Source: a bacterium
GTDB taxonomy: Bacteria; UBP15; UBA6099
Assembly (NCBI GenBank): GCA_029564595.1
Contig: JAKQPS010000122.1
Location: 1-10,357, forward strand
Length of the DNA: 10,357 bases
Direction of reading: 5' to 3'
In this document: positions 3,238 through 10,357 of the stretch, piece by piece
Layout of the letters: every line of letters begins with the position of its first letter
Position numbering within the stretch: position 1 is the first letter of the stretch
Translations under genes and position numbers: made by a program
The notes under the pieces: model-generated
Database searches by the model: none
Seen by the model: only the letters and a program-made list of their open reading frames with translations
Told to the model about the DNA's origin: nothing

Positions 3238-3873
3238 ATGCCCACTATCGACGTTTCATTCAGGATTGATGGCGAAAAAATGCCTGCGGACCATGGGTAC
3301 CAGACGCTTTCCGCCATATCGCGTCTAGTTCCTAGCATTCACAGCGATTCAACGTGTGGGATATTTCCTGTTAACGGCGTCAACATTGGAAACAGGTTTA
3401 TTTTGTTAAACGAAAGAAGTCGTCTTGTTTTTAGGCTCAGCCACGAAAAGCTTCCCGAGTTGCTGAAGCTCGCCGGAAAAAAGATTCTCATAAGTGAATG
3501 CCAGCTTCGTATCGGCATTCCTGAAGTATTCGCGTTGAAGCCGTCTTCTCATTTAAAAAGCAGACTCGTCACAATAAAAGGATTCATGGAGCCGGAACCA
3601 TTTCTGGAAGCTGCCGTCCGGCAGTTGTCTGAGATGGGAATTAACGGAAAGCCGGCGCTTGCGCTCAGAGCTTCCCAAAGAAGCGCCTCTGCAGAAACTT
3701 CCTGTCAATATATAAGGCGCACCCTGCGCGTTAAAGACAAAGAGATAGTCGGATATGCCATGATCGTCGAAAGCCTCACCGCCGAAGAATCCATCCTGCT
3801 CCAAGAAAAAGGAATCGGCGGCCGCCGCCGGATGGGCTGCGGACTGTTCGTCCCCTATAAGAGGAAACAATAG
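3238..3873 (+). CDS. cas6: Cas6 crRNA-processing endoribonuclease, MYXAN (Cmx6) type
   Basis: Cas6 cuts the CRISPR precursor transcript within each repeat to release crRNA guides, usually staying bound to the 3' handle. The 211-residue product has the Gly-rich loop near the C-terminus, GIGGRRRMGCGLF (192-204), that marks Cas6 RNA-binding proteins. It also has an N-terminal region with HGYQTLSAISRLVP and a second His at 35, and the SRLVTIKGFMEPEPF segment (108-122). This pattern matches the MYXAN Cas6 family and its length is normal. His19 and His35 are candidate catalytic residues; I cannot decide between them. The start is well set: GGAGG (3227-3231) lies 6 bases before the ATG at 3238, while an ATG at 3234 is out of frame. 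It is the first gene of the operon, and its stop TAG shares one base with the GTG of cas3. Confidence 0.92.
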   Translation: MPTIDVSFRIDGEKMPADHGYQTLSAISRLVPSIHSDSTCGIFPVNGVNIGNRFILLNERSRLVFRLSHEKLPELLKLAGKKILISECQLRIGIPEVFALKPSSHLKSRLVTIKGFMEPEPFLEAAVRQLSEMGINGKPALALRASQRSASAETSCQYIRRTLRVKDKEIVGYAMIVESLTAEESILLQEKGIGGRRRMGCGLFVPYKRKQ

Positions 3874-6131
3874 TGAATTTTGACAGAATGCTCGCAAAAA
3901 GCGCAGTAGATACTGCGACAAATGAATCGTCGCTTCTTCAGAATCATCTTGAGGCAGTGACAATTGCAGGTAACAGTATTGTTAGAACAGCCGGGCATAG
4001 AATACTAGAGAACTTATCTTTAGACGTCAACGATTGGATGAAGCGGCTTGAAGTTGCCATCAAGCTCTCTTGCAGAATTCACGATATTGGAAAAGCCAAC
4101 GAATCATTTCAAGCGATGGTTCGAGGGAAAGGTCAAAGCGGACAACAGCCAGTGCGGCATGAGCTTGTTTCATGTTATCTTATTATGAACAATGATGTAG
4201 TCGTCGAATGGCTGAACAATAATCTTTCAGACTTGTTTGTCGAAGATCAAGAGCACATTTGGAATGTGATATTCAGCGCTGTCGCAGGACATCACACAAA
4301 AATGGATTATCCATGGGAGAAAGCCGCTCCCGCTCTTAAACATGGCGGCTTTGGTTTGTCTCTCAAGATACACACATCTCATCCGGATTTTCTTTCTATA
4401 TTTTCAGCGACCGACAAATTCGCTGCGGCCACAGAATTATCTTTGGTCGACAGCAGTGAAAATTCAATATTTGATTGGCAAAACGTATTTGCTTTAAAAA
4501 ACAGGAAATGGAAACAGTTTCTATCTGAGCATCCTGACTGGAGAAGGTTTGCCGCAGCCGCAAAAGCGCTTTTGATGGCCGCAGACGCAGCAGGCAGTTC
4601 CATGTTGCCCGCGAATATTCCAATATCGAAGTGGATTGAGAACGCTCTTGCAGATTGTCTGCTGGCTGACGACCTTCAACAAGTGATAGATGAACGTCTT
4701 GGCGGAATGACTCCGAGACCATTTCAGATCAATGTCGGCGACTCGAAAGCGAAAGTCACTCTCGTAGAAGCGGGTTGCGGTTCAGGAAAAACCATCGGCG
4801 CATACATATGGGCTAAGAGGCACGCGGCAGGAAAGAAGCTTTTTTTCTGTTATCCGACAACCGGAACCGCCACAGAAGGATATCTTGGATATATAGCCCA
4901 ATCGCCGATTGAAGCGGAGCTTATTCACTCGCGGTCCGTTGTAGATCTCGAAGATTTTGCGCAATCTGGAGAAGAAGACTATTTTGAGAAGCCGGTCCGC
5001 ATCGAATCTCTAAAAGCTTGGGACGCTCGCATTGTTATATGCACTATTGATACGGTTTTGTCTCTTGTGAGAAATAATCATCGCGGTCTCTACAGTTCGC
5101 CGGCGCTTCTTTCCTCAGCATTCGTTTTTGATGAAGTCCATTCGCTCGACTATAGAATGTTCGAAGCGTTGGCATCATTCATGAAAGCCCTGCCGAATGC
5201 TTCCTTTCTTTTAATGTCAGCTTCAATCGTGTCTGCGCAAAAACAGCTTATTGAAGCTAGCTTTCCTGACATTGCCATGATATCCGCCCCTGCCGATATT
5301 GAGTCGCTCCCACGATACACAATAGAAAACAAAATCGATCCGGACGCAGCTTTCAACATAGCGGTTGAATATGTAAGAGCTGGAAAAAAAGTCCTTCGTG
5401 TGGCAAACACGGTTGCAGAAGCTCAACGATGGTATGACATGTCCGCGATGAACACGCTAAGAACAATCGTGTATCACAGTCGTTTTAAATACATAGACAG
5501 AAAAAGACAGCATCGAAGCATGATGGAAACCTTTGAAGACGAATCAGGAGTTCTGGCAATAGCGACACAAGTGGCGGAGATGTCTCTTGACTTAGACGCC
5601 GATTTACTCATTACCGATATTGCACCGGCATCGGCGCTCATTCAAAGGCTAGGCCGTCTTAATCGCAGAATAACTCCAGATGCGCCGGGTTCGCCTCGCA
5701 TTGCTGTTGTTTTGCCTGTTGAGAAAGCGGCGCCTTATCAGAACGAAGAATTAGAAGCCGCTCAAGATTGGATATCACGTTTGATTTCTCTTGATCGCGC
5801 TGTTTCGCAGTCTGACCTATCTGTTGCGTTGACGGAGATCGCCGCTCAATCCGAGCCTGTAGATTCATTTCGAACAGAAAATGTTGAGTGGTTGGATTCA
5901 GCATATTTTTCTTTTCCCGGCAACGTCAGGTCTACGGGCATATCTGTTCCTGTCATCATGGAAGAAGATATCCCTGTTTGTCGCAATTCTCGTATCGAAC
6001 TTGAAAAACATACCATTCCTATGAATTACACATCGTTTATGGACAAATGGAATGTTTATAAAAACCGATGGATAGCCCCGAGCGGAGCCATCGAATACAA
6101 CCCGGAAAGGGGAGCAAAATGGCGCAAATAA
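3873..6131 (+). CDS. cas3: Cas3 HD nuclease-helicase
   Basis: Cas3 is recruited by the crRNA-guided complex and unwinds and degrades target DNA. The 752-residue product holds both parts in one chain. The N-terminal HD nuclease shows His25, His70-Asp71 (CRIHDIGK), His96 and His140-His141 (AGHH), with Asp238 a likely further ligand. The superfamily 2 helicase shows Walker A GCGSGKT (301-307), the DEVH box (420-423), motif III SAS (449-451), the segment TQVAEMSLDLDAD (565-577) and motif VI QRLGRLNRR (591-599). All key residues are present, so it should be active. The start is GTG at 3873, in the TAGTG junction with cas6, with GAGG upstream inside cas6, so translation is probably coupled. The stop overlaps the cas8a1 start by 13 bases. 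Length and domain order are usual for Cas3. Confidence 0.96.
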   Translation: MNFDRMLAKSAVDTATNESSLLQNHLEAVTIAGNSIVRTAGHRILENLSLDVNDWMKRLEVAIKLSCRIHDIGKANESFQAMVRGKGQSGQQPVRHELVSCYLIMNNDVVVEWLNNNLSDLFVEDQEHIWNVIFSAVAGHHTKMDYPWEKAAPALKHGGFGLSLKIHTSHPDFLSIFSATDKFAAATELSLVDSSENSIFDWQNVFALKNRKWKQFLSEHPDWRRFAAAAKALLMAADAAGSSMLPANIPISKWIENALADCLLADDLQQVIDERLGGMTPRPFQINVGDSKAKVTLVEAGCGSGKTIGAYIWAKRHAAGKKLFFCYPTTGTATEGYLGYIAQSPIEAELIHSRSVVDLEDFAQSGEEDYFEKPVRIESLKAWDARIVICTIDTVLSLVRNNHRGLYSSPALLSSAFVFDEVHSLDYRMFEALASFMKALPNASFLLMSASIVSAQKQLIEASFPDIAMISAPADIESLPRYTIENKIDPDAAFNIAVEYVRAGKKVLRVANTVAEAQRWYDMSAMNTLRTIVYHSRFKYIDRKRQHRSMMETFEDESGVLAIATQVAEMSLDLDADLLITDIAPASALIQRLGRLNRRITPDAPGSPRIAVVLPVEKAAPYQNEELEAAQDWISRLISLDRAVSQSDLSVALTEIAAQSEPVDSFRTENVEWLDSAYFSFPGNVRSTGISVPVIMEEDIPVCRNSRIELEKHTIPMNYTSFMDKWNVYKNRWIAPSGAIEYNPERGAKWRK

Positions 6132-7693
6132 TGCGACTTGAATTATTCGGTTTAGGTATGTCTCCATTGCACCGCGCGGGACTGGCTGGTCTATACATGA
6201 CGCTGGACGCTTTCTCCAAGAGCGGATTGAGAATACCCGGTCTGGAATGGAGCTTGTCTCCTTCGGGTGTCGCTCTCGAATGGCTCGACGAAAAACCCGG
6301 CTCGGCGTTCAGGAATCTAATATCGAAGTCATTTCAGATTGACGACAATGGCTTTTTTCATTTTCCGGGGCTGGAAACCGAAGGTCCTCTTTCCATTGAA
6401 CATAAGCATCTTCTTTACGACGCTCTAAAACACACTTTTCTTCAATTTGGGCCGAACCGAAAAACTGGAGCAAAAACAGCTTTATCATATCAAATCAACG
6501 ACCAATTCATTCTTGATGAAGGTTTTTCTCCAATTTTATCTTATAGGCATCAGGGTTCTCCAGAAATGTTTTTAAACAACGATCAATTCTGCGATTCAAT
6601 AAAACTTTCAGGTTGGCTTTTTCCGGGAGGAACTGTAAGGCATGTAGGTTCCGGAGCGACAGACCTTGAAGAGCCGACAGACCGAGCATTGTGTCTCTTG
6701 TTTTCTTCTGTCGGATGCTTCTATTTCAAAATTCAGTCAAAAACACAAGGCCGCAAAACGCGCGCGGCTCTTATTGTTCCTATCATCAACGATTTGGAAG
6801 CATACGTTGAAACTCGCCGAGTCATGTATGGTCAGGATGTCTCTTCGCTCACGGCTTCCGGCGCGTCGGACGCGGCGCTTCGGTTTCTTGTAGCTGTCCG
6901 CGCTTCCCGTCTTGCGGGTCGCATTTCGACTCTTACTGAATCAGATATTCAATGTCAGACAGTTTCTTTTGGCATTGTAGGATGGAATGAAAAACAAAAA
7001 GTCAGAACAATGGTTCAGACCGTTGACGTCAAAACGCTTAAGTATCTCGACAACTATGAAATAGCGGCGAGCATCTTTAAGAACAAATGGCAGCGAATAA
7101 AACAAAAGACAAACCGAAAAGGCGAAATTGAGGCTCCATCTCGCGATTTTGTCAAAACCTACGCCGCGCGTGAGATTATCGCCGGCAACATCGCCCGCGG
7201 ATCTCCTTTTTTTCATGGCTTTTCGAATTACATGACAAACAAAGAAACAAGAGAACAATTACTTTACGAAAGAAAGGAGTTGAACGAAATGGTGGAAAAA
7301 GCAGTGTTTGATGAAGAAAACCAGCGAATCCTGATTTCAGCATGTCATGAGGCGTGGCGTCGAAGGCTGGGACAACTCGGCGACCGTTCTCGCTCTGAAA
7401 GCACAGATTTTAATTCGCTTGCCAACCGGGAGTTTGAACGCTGGCGCGTGTCTCTGGCGCGCTGTAAAAACGCCTCCTCTCTCCGCGAAACACTTGTTGA
7501 CTTCTGGTCCAGAACCGGTCCTCTTCCGGCGTTGCAGAACCGCTGGCAGGACATTCTCTCATTGCTGGACGACCCGCAGTGGCGTTTAGCTAAAGACCTC
7601 GCGCTTCTTGCGCTCGCCAGCTACAAACCGGCAAACAAGGAAGAAGAAGCGGCGCTTGCCGGAGATTCAGATCAAAAAGGAGAAGAACTATGA
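6119..7693 (+). CDS. cas8a1: Cas8a1/Cmx1 large subunit of the MYXAN surveillance complex
   Basis: This is the large subunit, expected to recognise the PAM and recruit Cas3. The 524-residue product opens with LELFGLGMSPLHRAGLAGLY, the signature start of the MYXAN Cas8a1 (Cmx1/Csx13) family, followed by GLEWSLSPSGVALEW and the HFPGL segment (81-85). I chose the ATG at 6119 because GGGGAG (6109-6114) lies just before it. The upstream in-frame ATG at 6068 would add 17 residues unlike the family start, and the ATG at 6131 is farther from the Shine-Dalgarno. The C-terminal third (about 391-524) is predicted helical and polar, resembling a fused small subunit, and has its own ribosome site (see the Cas11 entry). 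The gene overlaps cas3 by 13 bases and cas7 by 4 (ATGA). The family is divergent in sequence; the assignment rests on the N-terminal motif and position. Confidence 0.88.
   Translation: MAQIMRLELFGLGMSPLHRAGLAGLYMTLDAFSKSGLRIPGLEWSLSPSGVALEWLDEKPGSAFRNLISKSFQIDDNGFFHFPGLETEGPLSIEHKHLLYDALKHTFLQFGPNRKTGAKTALSYQINDQFILDEGFSPILSYRHQGSPEMFLNNDQFCDSIKLSGWLFPGGTVRHVGSGATDLEEPTDRALCLLFSSVGCFYFKIQSKTQGRKTRAALIVPIINDLEAYVETRRVMYGQDVSSLTASGASDAALRFLVAVRASRLAGRISTLTESDIQCQTVSFGIVGWNEKQKVRTMVQTVDVKTLKYLDNYEIAASIFKNKWQRIKQKTNRKGEIEAPSRDFVKTYAAREIIAGNIARGSPFFHGFSNYMTNKETREQLLYERKELNEMVEKAVFDEENQRILISACHEAWRRRLGQLGDRSRSESTDFNSLANREFERWRVSLARCKNASSLRETLVDFWSRTGPLPALQNRWQDILSLLDDPQWRLAKDLALLALASYKPANKEEEAALAGDSDQKGEEL
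7273..7279 (+). promoter_or_regulatory. Internal Shine-Dalgarno inside cas8a1
   Basis: AAAGGAG lies 9 bases before an in-frame ATG at 7289 that starts residue 391 of Cas8a1. It is as strong as the ribosome sites that start the other cas genes here, and lies in a stretch coding ordinary residues (ERKELNEM). It is the only well-spaced Shine-Dalgarno plus in-frame ATG that I noticed inside this gene. Confidence 0.55.
7289..7693 (+). CDS. Candidate internally translated Cas11 small subunit (C-terminal Cas8a1)
   Basis: Starting at the ATG at 7289, the cas8a1 frame would give a separate protein of 134 residues, beginning MVEKAVFDEENQRI and ending with the Cas8a1 C-terminus. It is mostly charged and helical-looking (AWRRRLGQLGDRSR, REFERWRVSLARC, RETLVDFWSRTG, AKDLALLALASY) with no transmembrane segment. 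Cas11 small subunits are short all-helical proteins that line the belly of Cascade and support the non-target strand. In subtypes I-B, I-C and I-D they are known to be made from an internal start in the large-subunit gene. No separate cas11 is present between cas6 and cas4-cas1, which fits. The evidence here is the Shine-Dalgarno, spacing, size and position; expression is unproven. Confidence 0.5.
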   Translation: MVEKAVFDEENQRILISACHEAWRRRLGQLGDRSRSESTDFNSLANREFERWRVSLARCKNASSLRETLVDFWSRTGPLPALQNRWQDILSLLDDPQWRLAKDLALLALASYKPANKEEEAALAGDSDQKGEEL

Positions 7694-8730
7694 GCAAACA
7701 TCTTTTCGGAATAGTTGTCACGCCTTACGGCCCCGCAGCCAACAATCGCGGCGAAAACGAAGGAAACATCACCACTCTTCAAAAACTTCTCTGGAAAGGA
7801 GAGGTTCACACCACTGTTTCTGCGGAAGCCATCCGTTGGGCTTACCGTTACTTCTGGCAAAAGAAAGGCCTGCCCGTGAACCGCAAGTGGAACGAGGATA
7901 AAGCCGACCACGAATGGCAGGATAAGACTTGGGCCCCATGGACTGACCCGGACGCCTCCGGCAAAGATATGCCCACTTTTATCGACGACGACGTTCTTGG
8001 ATTCATGCTCGCCGAGGGGGCAAAAACTGACGGCAGCGATTCAACCGACGCCTTGAAGAAAGATCTCAAATCCACCGAAGAACAACTCAAAAGCATGTCG
8101 AAAGAGGACAAAAAAGGCGAGGCTGGAAAAGCTCTAGAAGCAAAAGCCAAAGAACTCAAAGCAACAATCAAGGCTCTCTCTAAAGGAGTTTGTGACAAGC
8201 GACGCGGCCCTCTCGAAATATCACGCGCCATTTCTCTTGTCCCCTTCGCCGGCGACATAACTTTCAACGCAAAAAGCGGCGAAAAGACAAACGTCAGCCT
8301 TTACGGCACTGAAGTTCACGCCACCCGCTATCAGTATGGTTTCGCTATCACCCCTGAAAATCTTCGTGAAAAAGCTCGCGCGCTTGATGTCGTAGACGCC
8401 GTGGCTTCCCTTTCTGAAGTGGCAGGCAACCAGAGCCGTTTTCTGTTTGATTTTTCACCCGAGACCATAATCTTCAGATGGACGGATGATTTCGCTCCAA
8501 GATTTCTCTACGGTTTTTCAGAGCTGGATGGAACGGTTTCAATCACGGACGTGATTTCAAAAATCAAGTCGAAAGACATAGACGCATCCGAACTGTTCAT
8601 CGGCGGCCCGGTCGTCGACTCTCTTTCGGAAGGCGACAAAAAAGAGATTGAAAAAGCCGCTTGTTTCGCAGGAGTCAAACAAGCGACTGAAGCATTGAAG
8701 GCTCGTATCAGCGCCGATCTCGGTCTTTAG
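7690..8730 (+). CDS. cas7: Cas7 backbone subunit, DevR/Cst2 family
   Basis: Cas7 forms the helical backbone that holds the crRNA spacer. The 346-residue product begins with HLFGIVVTPYGPAANNRGEN, and carries NITTLQKLLWKGEVHTTVSAEAIRW and later GTEVHATRYQYGFAI (206-220), all hallmarks of the DevR/Cst2 branch of Cas7. RRGPLEISRAISLVPFAGD (171-189) is also typical. Between about residues 111 and 168 sits a Lys/Glu/Ala-rich, probably helical insert; a variable low-complexity linker here is usual in DevR relatives. The ATG at 7690 overlaps the cas8a1 stop as ATGA and has AGGAG 7 bases upstream, so translation is coupled. In Myxococcus xanthus the devR relative belongs to a sporulation-linked CRISPR operon; nothing here indicates such a role, and the complete gene set points to immunity. 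Confidence 0.94.
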   Translation: MSKHLFGIVVTPYGPAANNRGENEGNITTLQKLLWKGEVHTTVSAEAIRWAYRYFWQKKGLPVNRKWNEDKADHEWQDKTWAPWTDPDASGKDMPTFIDDDVLGFMLAEGAKTDGSDSTDALKKDLKSTEEQLKSMSKEDKKGEAGKALEAKAKELKATIKALSKGVCDKRRGPLEISRAISLVPFAGDITFNAKSGEKTNVSLYGTEVHATRYQYGFAITPENLREKARALDVVDAVASLSEVAGNQSRFLFDFSPETIIFRWTDDFAPRFLYGFSELDGTVSITDVISKIKSKDIDASELFIGGPVVDSLSEGDKKEIEKAACFAGVKQATEALKARISADLGL

Positions 8731-8757: not shown

Positions 8758-9402
8758 ATGAATATCGCTTCTTTGTTTGTTTCGATTCCAGTCGCGTCAT
8801 TTCGCGCCCCTTTCGCGCGCGAATACTTTGAGACGCTTCCCTGCCCGCCTCCTTCGACCGTCTTCGGAATGCTGTTGTCAATGGTTGGCGAACCTGACAG
8901 GCTTGCTCATGAAGGCGCGGAAATCGCTTTGGCTCTTGTTTCGCGTCCTGAAAAATCCGTTGTTCTTCGCACTTTGTGGCGCGTCAAAGACCGCAAACAA
9001 CAACCCGGCTCCGGCAACAATAGAACTCCCGGATTTCAAGAACTCCTCACAGGCGTAAATCTTTTTGTGTGGGTTCGCTCCGGAGAGAATGAACGCTCCT
9101 CCGCTTCGCTCGCAGACAGAGTTCAAAAAGCGCTTTCCTCCCCCGTTACAGTCAATCGGTTCGGTGGTCTTTCGCTTGGAGAAAGCTCTCATCTTGTTGA
9201 CGAAGTAAGACCGATTAGAAGCGATGACCCGAAAACAGGCTGGGCGCTGGTGGCGGACCCCAGAGGCAGCCTATCAATGCCGATTTGGCCCGACCATGTC
9301 GGCTCCGCTTCCACTCGTTGGGCGTCTTATTTCTTGCGGGAAGAAAACTTCGACGGATTCCCATCTGAGCAAGCATGGACCGTCGTGTCAAGGAGAGCTT
9401 GA
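8758..9402 (+). CDS. cas5: Cas5 subunit, DevS (Cmx5) family
   Basis: Cas5 caps the 5' handle of the crRNA in the surveillance complex next to Cas8. The 214-residue product starts MNIASLFVSIPVASFRAP and has AREYFETLPCPPPSTVFGML, then VVLRTLWRVK, RFGGLSLGESSHLVDEVRP and HVGSASTRW, a set that is characteristic of the MYXAN Cas5/DevS family. I place the start at the ATG at 8758, which has GAGAGG (8747-8752) 5 bases before it. The in-frame GTG at 8737 would add seven residues that the family lacks and would put this ribosome site inside the coding region. It follows cas7 after a 27-base gap and ends 4 bases before the cas4-cas1 start. The length is normal and no key segment appears to be missing. 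Confidence 0.93.
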   Translation: MNIASLFVSIPVASFRAPFAREYFETLPCPPPSTVFGMLLSMVGEPDRLAHEGAEIALALVSRPEKSVVLRTLWRVKDRKQQPGSGNNRTPGFQELLTGVNLFVWVRSGENERSSASLADRVQKALSSPVTVNRFGGLSLGESSHLVDEVRPIRSDDPKTGWALVADPRGSLSMPIWPDHVGSASTRWASYFLREENFDGFPSEQAWTVVSRRA

Positions 9403-9406
9403 ATTA

Positions 9407-10357
9407 GTGGACGCCTCACACGACCCTCAAATACGCGTCATGGCTCTCCATGCGCTTGCGTATTGTGAGCGTTTGTTCTATCTGGAAGAGGTCGAGGAAA
9501 TCCGGCTCGCGGACGCCGATGTGTTCGCGGGCCGTTCCCTCCACCTTGATCTTGCGTTGGAGAACGCTCTCGAAAAATCCGAAGTCGATCTTTCTTGTGA
9601 AACCCTCGGATTGGTCGGCCGCGCCGACATCATTAAAAAATCCAACGGCGAATGGATTCCTTTCGAGCATAAAAAAGGCGCTTCCCGCGCGGTCGACAAC
9701 GCTCATCAAGCTTGGCCGCCGGACTCCCTTCAGGTTGTCGCATACGCCATGCTCCTCGAAACAAAACTCGGACACCCGGTTTCGGAGGGCAGAATCAGAT
9801 ATCACAGAGACAACGTCACGGTCAGGGTCGCTGTCGATTCTGATGCGCGCCAAAGAGTTCTAGCCGCCGCCGCCCGCGCGCGCCTCCTTCGCTCTTCTCC
9901 CAACCGCCCCCCTGTCGCGGACAACGACCGTCTTTGCCTTCATTGCTCTCTTTCTCCCGTGTGCCTCCCTGAGGAAGATAGAATTGCCCGAAACAAGAAC
10001 TGGTCGCCCATTCGTCTGTTCCCTCCAGACAGGGAGGGTCGCGCCATTCACGTCACGTCCCATTCCGCCGTGATTCGCCGCTCCAACGACCAGCTAACCG
10101 TCCAAGTCAAGGATGCGGACGACCTTCATTTCTCTTCGAACGAAATCGACTCGCTCATTCTCCACGGGTATCCGCAGATAACCACGCAGGCGCTCCATCA
10201 CTGCGCATACAACGGGATTCCCGTTCATTGGATATCCGCCGGCGGACGCTACGTCGCCGGACTTCTCGCCGGAGCAGGCTCGGTTCAACGGCGACTCAGA
10301 CAATTCAAAGCCTTATCGTCTCCGGCCATTTGTATTGATCTTTCCAGAAGAACCGCC
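9407..10357 (+). CDS. cas4-cas1: Cas4-Cas1 fusion protein, N-terminal 317 residues (partial, runs off right edge)
   Basis: This is a spacer-acquisition protein in which Cas4 trims and orients prespacers and Cas1 integrates them. The frame from GTG 9407 is open to the last base. The Cas4 part (about 1-195) shows RVMALHALAYCERLFYLE with Cys20, GRADI with Asp73, PFEHKKG (Glu87, Lys89; RecB-type nuclease), DSLQVVAYA with Gln109, and Cys177, Cys180 and Cys186, which with Cys20 would hold a 4Fe-4S cluster. All expected residues are present. From about residue 200 the chain continues without a break into Cas1 (IHVTSHSAVIRR, then SLILHGYPQITTQALHHC and GIPVHWISAGGRYVAGLL), the N-terminal beta domain; the catalytic Glu/His residues lie beyond the edge. 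GTG is chosen since AGGAG (9391-9395) lies 11 bases upstream; the ATG at 9440 would remove conserved residues. Confidence 0.93.
   Translation, partial: MDASHDPQIRVMALHALAYCERLFYLEEVEEIRLADADVFAGRSLHLDLALENALEKSEVDLSCETLGLVGRADIIKKSNGEWIPFEHKKGASRAVDNAHQAWPPDSLQVVAYAMLLETKLGHPVSEGRIRYHRDNVTVRVAVDSDARQRVLAAAARARLLRSSPNRPPVADNDRLCLHCSLSPVCLPEEDRIARNKNWSPIRLFPPDREGRAIHVTSHSAVIRRSNDQLTVQVKDADDLHFSSNEIDSLILHGYPQITTQALHHCAYNGIPVHWISAGGRYVAGLLAGAGSVQRRLRQFKALSSPAICIDLSRRTA

Follow-up and report, generated by a model that had tools for sequence, protein, structure and literature searches.

A stretch of DNA of 10,357 nucleotides (the window), which is a complete contig in a 4.4 Mb genome belonging to a small bacterial phylum, carries a MYXAN-type cas8 gene whose 3' quarter, we conclude with a probability of about 0.94, is a nested cas11 that directs synthesis of a free 134-residue Cas11 besides full-length Cas8. 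Because the end of this gene has a conserved ribosome-binding site and start codon of its own, cas8 very probably also yields Cas11 as a separate small subunit, as expected for this organism from the behavior of its relatives.

The operon was assigned using NCBIfam, PADLOC and Pfam, and its genes, all on the plus strand, follow the order cas6-cas3-cas8-cas7-cas5-cas4/cas1 with no other gene between them: cas6 (Cmx6; 3238-3873; TIGR02807, E 8.5e-59), cas3 encoding an HD nuclease and helicase (3873-6131; TIGR01587, E 1.5e-50; TIGR01596, E 2.4e-15), cas8 (6119-7693), cas7 (Cst2/DevR; 7690-8730; TIGR02585, E 2.9e-31), cas5 (Cmx5/DevS; 8758-9402; TIGR02586, E 1.4e-40) and a cas4/cas1 fusion (9407-10357; PF01930 and PF01867) that is cut by the contig end at 10357. 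Six models characterize it as a type I-B/MYXAN operon, all scoring above their cut-offs (TIGR03485, TIGR03486, TIGR02586, TIGR02807, TIGR02585 and TIGR01587). The cas8 product, the 524-residue large subunit of Cascade, belongs to the MYXAN set of Cas8a1/Cmx1 proteins, named Cas8b in newer nomenclature. It matches both MYXAN models (TIGR03485, E 3e-60; TIGR03486, E 6e-34; curated cut-off exceeded), is called Cas8a/Cas8b by PADLOC, and was matched by phmmer to chain I of PDB entry 8FCJ (E 4e-31). The start of cas5 is probably ATG 8758 rather than GTG 8737, since the Shine-Dalgarno (SD) energy is -8.4 kcal/mol at the former and -2.4 at the latter. No CRISPR array was seen in the 10,357-nucleotide window, whose contig stops within cas4/cas1, and no relatives were found in viral contigs or phages at the sensitivity used.

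An earlier note, made from the sequence alone, had drawn attention to an internal SD, AAAGGAG (7273-7279, plus strand), nine bases ahead of an in-frame ATG (7289-7291) and a predicted product of 134 residues, in an operon lacking a stand-alone cas11. Positions, frame and length were all confirmed: the ATG corresponds to Met391 of Cas8 ((7289-6119)/3 = 390), and the nested frame (7289-7693, plus strand) shares the cas8 stop codon (7691-7693), giving a product identical in sequence to the Cas8 C-terminus. The absence of a stand-alone cas11 also held for this operon, with no further gene between cas6 and the truncated cas4/cas1. Pairing of the internal site with the anti-SD sequence (-8.2 kcal/mol) is comparable to that at the starts of cas6 (-10.0), cas8 (-7.8), cas7 (-8.7) and cas3 (-6.0), and ranks second among 90 in-frame internal ATG, GTG and TTG codons of the five cas genes, the first being ATG 8758. 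The arrangement AAGGAG-N9-ATG occurs once on the two strands of the window, compared with 0.06 occurrences expected from shuffled sequences (11 of 200 shuffles contained one), and synonymous recoding of this cas8 alone produced an SD of such strength in 1.3% of trials. By itself, then, the signal in the window is suggestive; it is conservation across the family that makes the case decisive.

To assess that conservation, MYXAN cas8 homologues were gathered from plasmids, named genomes and sampled genomes, mainly of cyanobacteria; 102 of them cover the site, and a thinned set comprised 60 representatives sharing less than 70% identity. The codon aligned with the window ATG is ATG in 91 homologues, GTG in nine, CTC in one and CTG in one, so that ATG or GTG occupies this column in 100 of 102 sequences, as against 28% for the next-best column of cas8 (33% in the thinned set). 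ATG or GTG together with an SD at or below -4 kcal/mol was found in 91% of the 102 homologues and 88% of the 60 representatives, with the runner-up column reaching 15%; kinship among the homologues means that such sequence counts overstate their independence. The distance from the end of the SD core to the start is usually 9 or 10 bases, and a recognizable core is absent from nine of the 102.

Conservation of both the SD and the start codon exceeds what conservation of the protein requires. In 300 trials that kept the protein unchanged and sampled codons according to the usage of each gene, the mean SD energy expected across the 102 homologues was -5.28, against -6.36 observed (z -7.1), and no trial yielded a value as strong; the thinned set of 60 gave z -5.5. 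When the same recoding was applied across 456 columns (mean z 0.15, standard deviation 1.8), the three lowest values (-8.2, -6.5 and -6.5) all fell at the Cas11 start site, followed by -3.7 for the next column. Overall, the SD excess at the site corresponds to a z of about -6.5 to -7, and the internal start proposed in the earlier note is thus conserved in relatives beyond codon constraint. Individual codons follow the same pattern: valine at the start column is encoded by GTG in nine of nine cases, against 19% across the genes, and glycine four codons upstream of the start is encoded by GGA in 73 of 92 (40% in the genes) and by GGC in none of 92 (18% in the genes). In the window and two congeners the residues RKEL replace the RGGL or RKGL usual for the family, yet the DNA still reads AAGGAG. 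In an 84%-identical gene all five codons of the segment (GAA AGA AAG GAG TTG) are the same as in the window, while codon agreement at same-residue positions is 66% overall. This test of synonymous sites provides evolutionary support for selection of the hidden start across the MYXAN family.

The nested product also has the fold of Cas11, as had been anticipated. AlphaFold modeled residues 391-524 as an all-helical bundle (pLDDT 90.1, with low confidence in the first residues of the free protein), and in the model of full-length Cas8 (pLDDT 90.7) Met391 lies within a short helix (385-394) just ahead of the C-terminal bundle. The top Foldseek matches were chain J of 8FCJ, the Cas11 of a type I-B CRISPR-associated transposon (CAST) system (probability 1.00; TM 0.69/0.83; a modest E of 4.6e-3), the matching part of the Cas8 from that complex, and Cascade of Synechocystis 6714. 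VIA-align returned Z scores of 13.6 to 8FCJ_J, 8.5 to 8H7Q_J and 7.0 to 8H67_O, all three of them type I-B Cascade chains, and 6.5 to chain 9CRO_N of a type I-A Cascade, with the first non-Cascade structure at 4.7; middling Z scores alone are weak proof for helical bundles, and here the sequence points the same way. When the nested proteins were built into a profile, it matched 8FCJ_J with an E of 2e-38, the first residues of the two coinciding, and 8FCJ_I beginning at residue 397; the window ATG therefore lies exactly at the start of the solved 8FCJ Cas11. A profile match to retroviral capsid proteins (E about 0.006), more than 30 orders weaker than the Cas11 matches, was dismissed as chance similarity between helical proteins.

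An alternative explanation for these features is that Met391 and its purine-rich preceding codons are kept for the protein only, the motif ER(K/G)GLxxM being structurally constrained in Cas8 and the SD-like DNA a by-product. The segment is indeed conserved as protein, Met391 and the glycine of column 387 hardly varying, and Met391 is placed in helix 385-394 of the full-length model. A family-wide lack of synonymous excess at the SD would have favored this explanation; the recoding test instead revealed an excess, at a site that is the extreme of all columns. Nor would it account for valine at the start column being always encoded by GTG, for Lys-Glu and Gly-Gly versions of the segment each yielding an SD, or for a relative's Cas11 beginning at the same column in a solved complex, and we regard it as very unlikely.

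Proteolytic clipping of Cas8, rather than internal translation, might also be proposed as the source of free Cas11, given that the product begins just ahead of the helical C-terminal domain, at a position that might be accessible to a protease. Selection at synonymous sites of the SD and start codon needs translation as its explanation, and in Haloferax a change of Met545 to Ala at the internal start left only the signal of the full-length protein (PMC11899642), leaving clipping a negligible likelihood. Alternatively, the internal site could be a relic in this lineage, Cascade functioning either with just Cas8 or with Cas11 supplied from another locus of the genome. Since the contig ends inside cas4/cas1, the absence of cas11 pertains to this operon alone, and Haloferax Cascade still forms without Cas11b (PMC11899642). 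Against decay of the site, the window and two congeners retain an intact SD and ATG, and the five codons described above are unchanged in the 84%-identical gene despite 66% agreement overall, such that we consider a relic highly improbable.

The principle of a nested Cas11 is already published, and the window represents a sound further example of an ordinary kind. The earlier note had suggested, with some reserve, that the MYXAN family lacked any described internal Cas11 start; this was mistaken, as one is reported for the type I-B 'Myxan' locus of Synechocystis sp. PCC 6714, where a ribosome-binding site inside cas8b encodes Cas11 (PMC11096372). Three Cas11b subunits occur per complex in that system, and Cas11 was present in the purified complex (PMC11096372). 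The Synechocystis Cascade (PDB 8H67, 8IP0) resembles the window in that this site lies close to the 3' end of cas8b and in the identity of Cas11b with the C-terminal part of Cas8b, the window product likewise being in frame, and its chains are those matching our model at Z 8.5 (8H7Q_J) and 7.0 (8H67_O). It differs in sequence, with 9-15% identity over the aligned fold, and in that Cas11 was co-expressed from a gene of its own. In the type I-B CAST Cascade (8FCJ and five sister entries), Cas8 is named Type I-MYXAN Cas8a1/Cmx1, and the 138-residue Cas11 equals Cas8 residues 397-534, starting at the column of ATG 7289 (Z 13.6). Its entries contain three Cas11 chains on average (18 chains in six entries). 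This is a Tn7-like transposon system, whereas the window contains an ordinary defense operon with cas3 and cas4/cas1. More broadly, PMC10212523, with reference to McBride et al. 2020, describes internal Cas11 starts as conserved across subtypes I-B, I-C and I-D. In those subtypes (McBride et al. 2020, also cited in PMC11096372) and in Haloferax, the small subunit is encoded in frame inside the large-subunit gene, as in the window, but the large subunits belong to other families, and the SD of the Haloferax site is weak (GGATG). For Haloferax Cas11b, both mutation of the start codon and mapping of peptides support the internal start (PMC11899642).

By analogy with these relatives, a single mRNA would be read from two starts, full-length Cas8 being translated from 6119 and Cas11 from ATG 7289 by ribosomes loading at AAAGGAG (7273-7279). 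The same helical sequence would thus be used twice, within Cas8 as its C-terminal domain and in about three free copies, a number that, like the role of Cas11, is taken from the solved complexes. Full-length Cas8 would recognize the PAM, while the inner belly of Cascade, which holds the displaced non-target DNA strand, would be built from free Cas11 together with the Cas8 C-terminal domain. Annotation of a MYXAN operon lists five effector genes, and a working complex would by this reasoning need a sixth protein hidden in cas8. Transfer of a MYXAN system to another host must then supply Cas11, as found for relatives (PMC13199841, PMC10212523); the foreign host may not use the internal site, since the cryptic start in Thermotoga cas8b1 was inactive in E. 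coli (PMC13199841) and Synechocystis Cas11 was expressed from a separate gene (PMC11096372). We also entertain, as a rather doubtful proposition, that each lineage has tuned how strong its internal start is, through the choice of ATG or GTG and through the length and spacing of the SD, and so sets the Cas8:Cas11 ratio, the GTG starts of a Nostoc-like clade being a possible instance; if true, evolution would have made this ratio a means of controlling how Cascade of the MYXAN family assembles.

Several individual homologues displayed features of their own. The GTG starts of the Nostoc-like clade occur in L007, L016-L019, L032, L033, L035 and L074. The two sequences with neither ATG nor GTG at the start column are L014 and L022 (CTC, CTG), and in L014 an in-frame ATG lies two codons upstream of the column, behind AAAGGAAA. 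Two further cas8 copies are apparently decayed or diverged: L117, with GGG at the Cas11 start position, and L044, whose match contains two stop codons. A copy on a plasmid of Gloeothece verrucosa (L009) keeps the Cas11 start ATG and is probably part of an I-B2 CAST, because it has no annotated cas3 adjoining and a TniQ gene beside it. Elsewhere in the window, the minus strand of positions 1-2450 encodes a large secreted-type protein that is truncated by the contig end; it contains bacterial Ig-like domains (Big_13) as well as about eight cysteine-rich repeats of 34 residues (102-nucleotide period), and long plus-strand frames over this interval are by-products.
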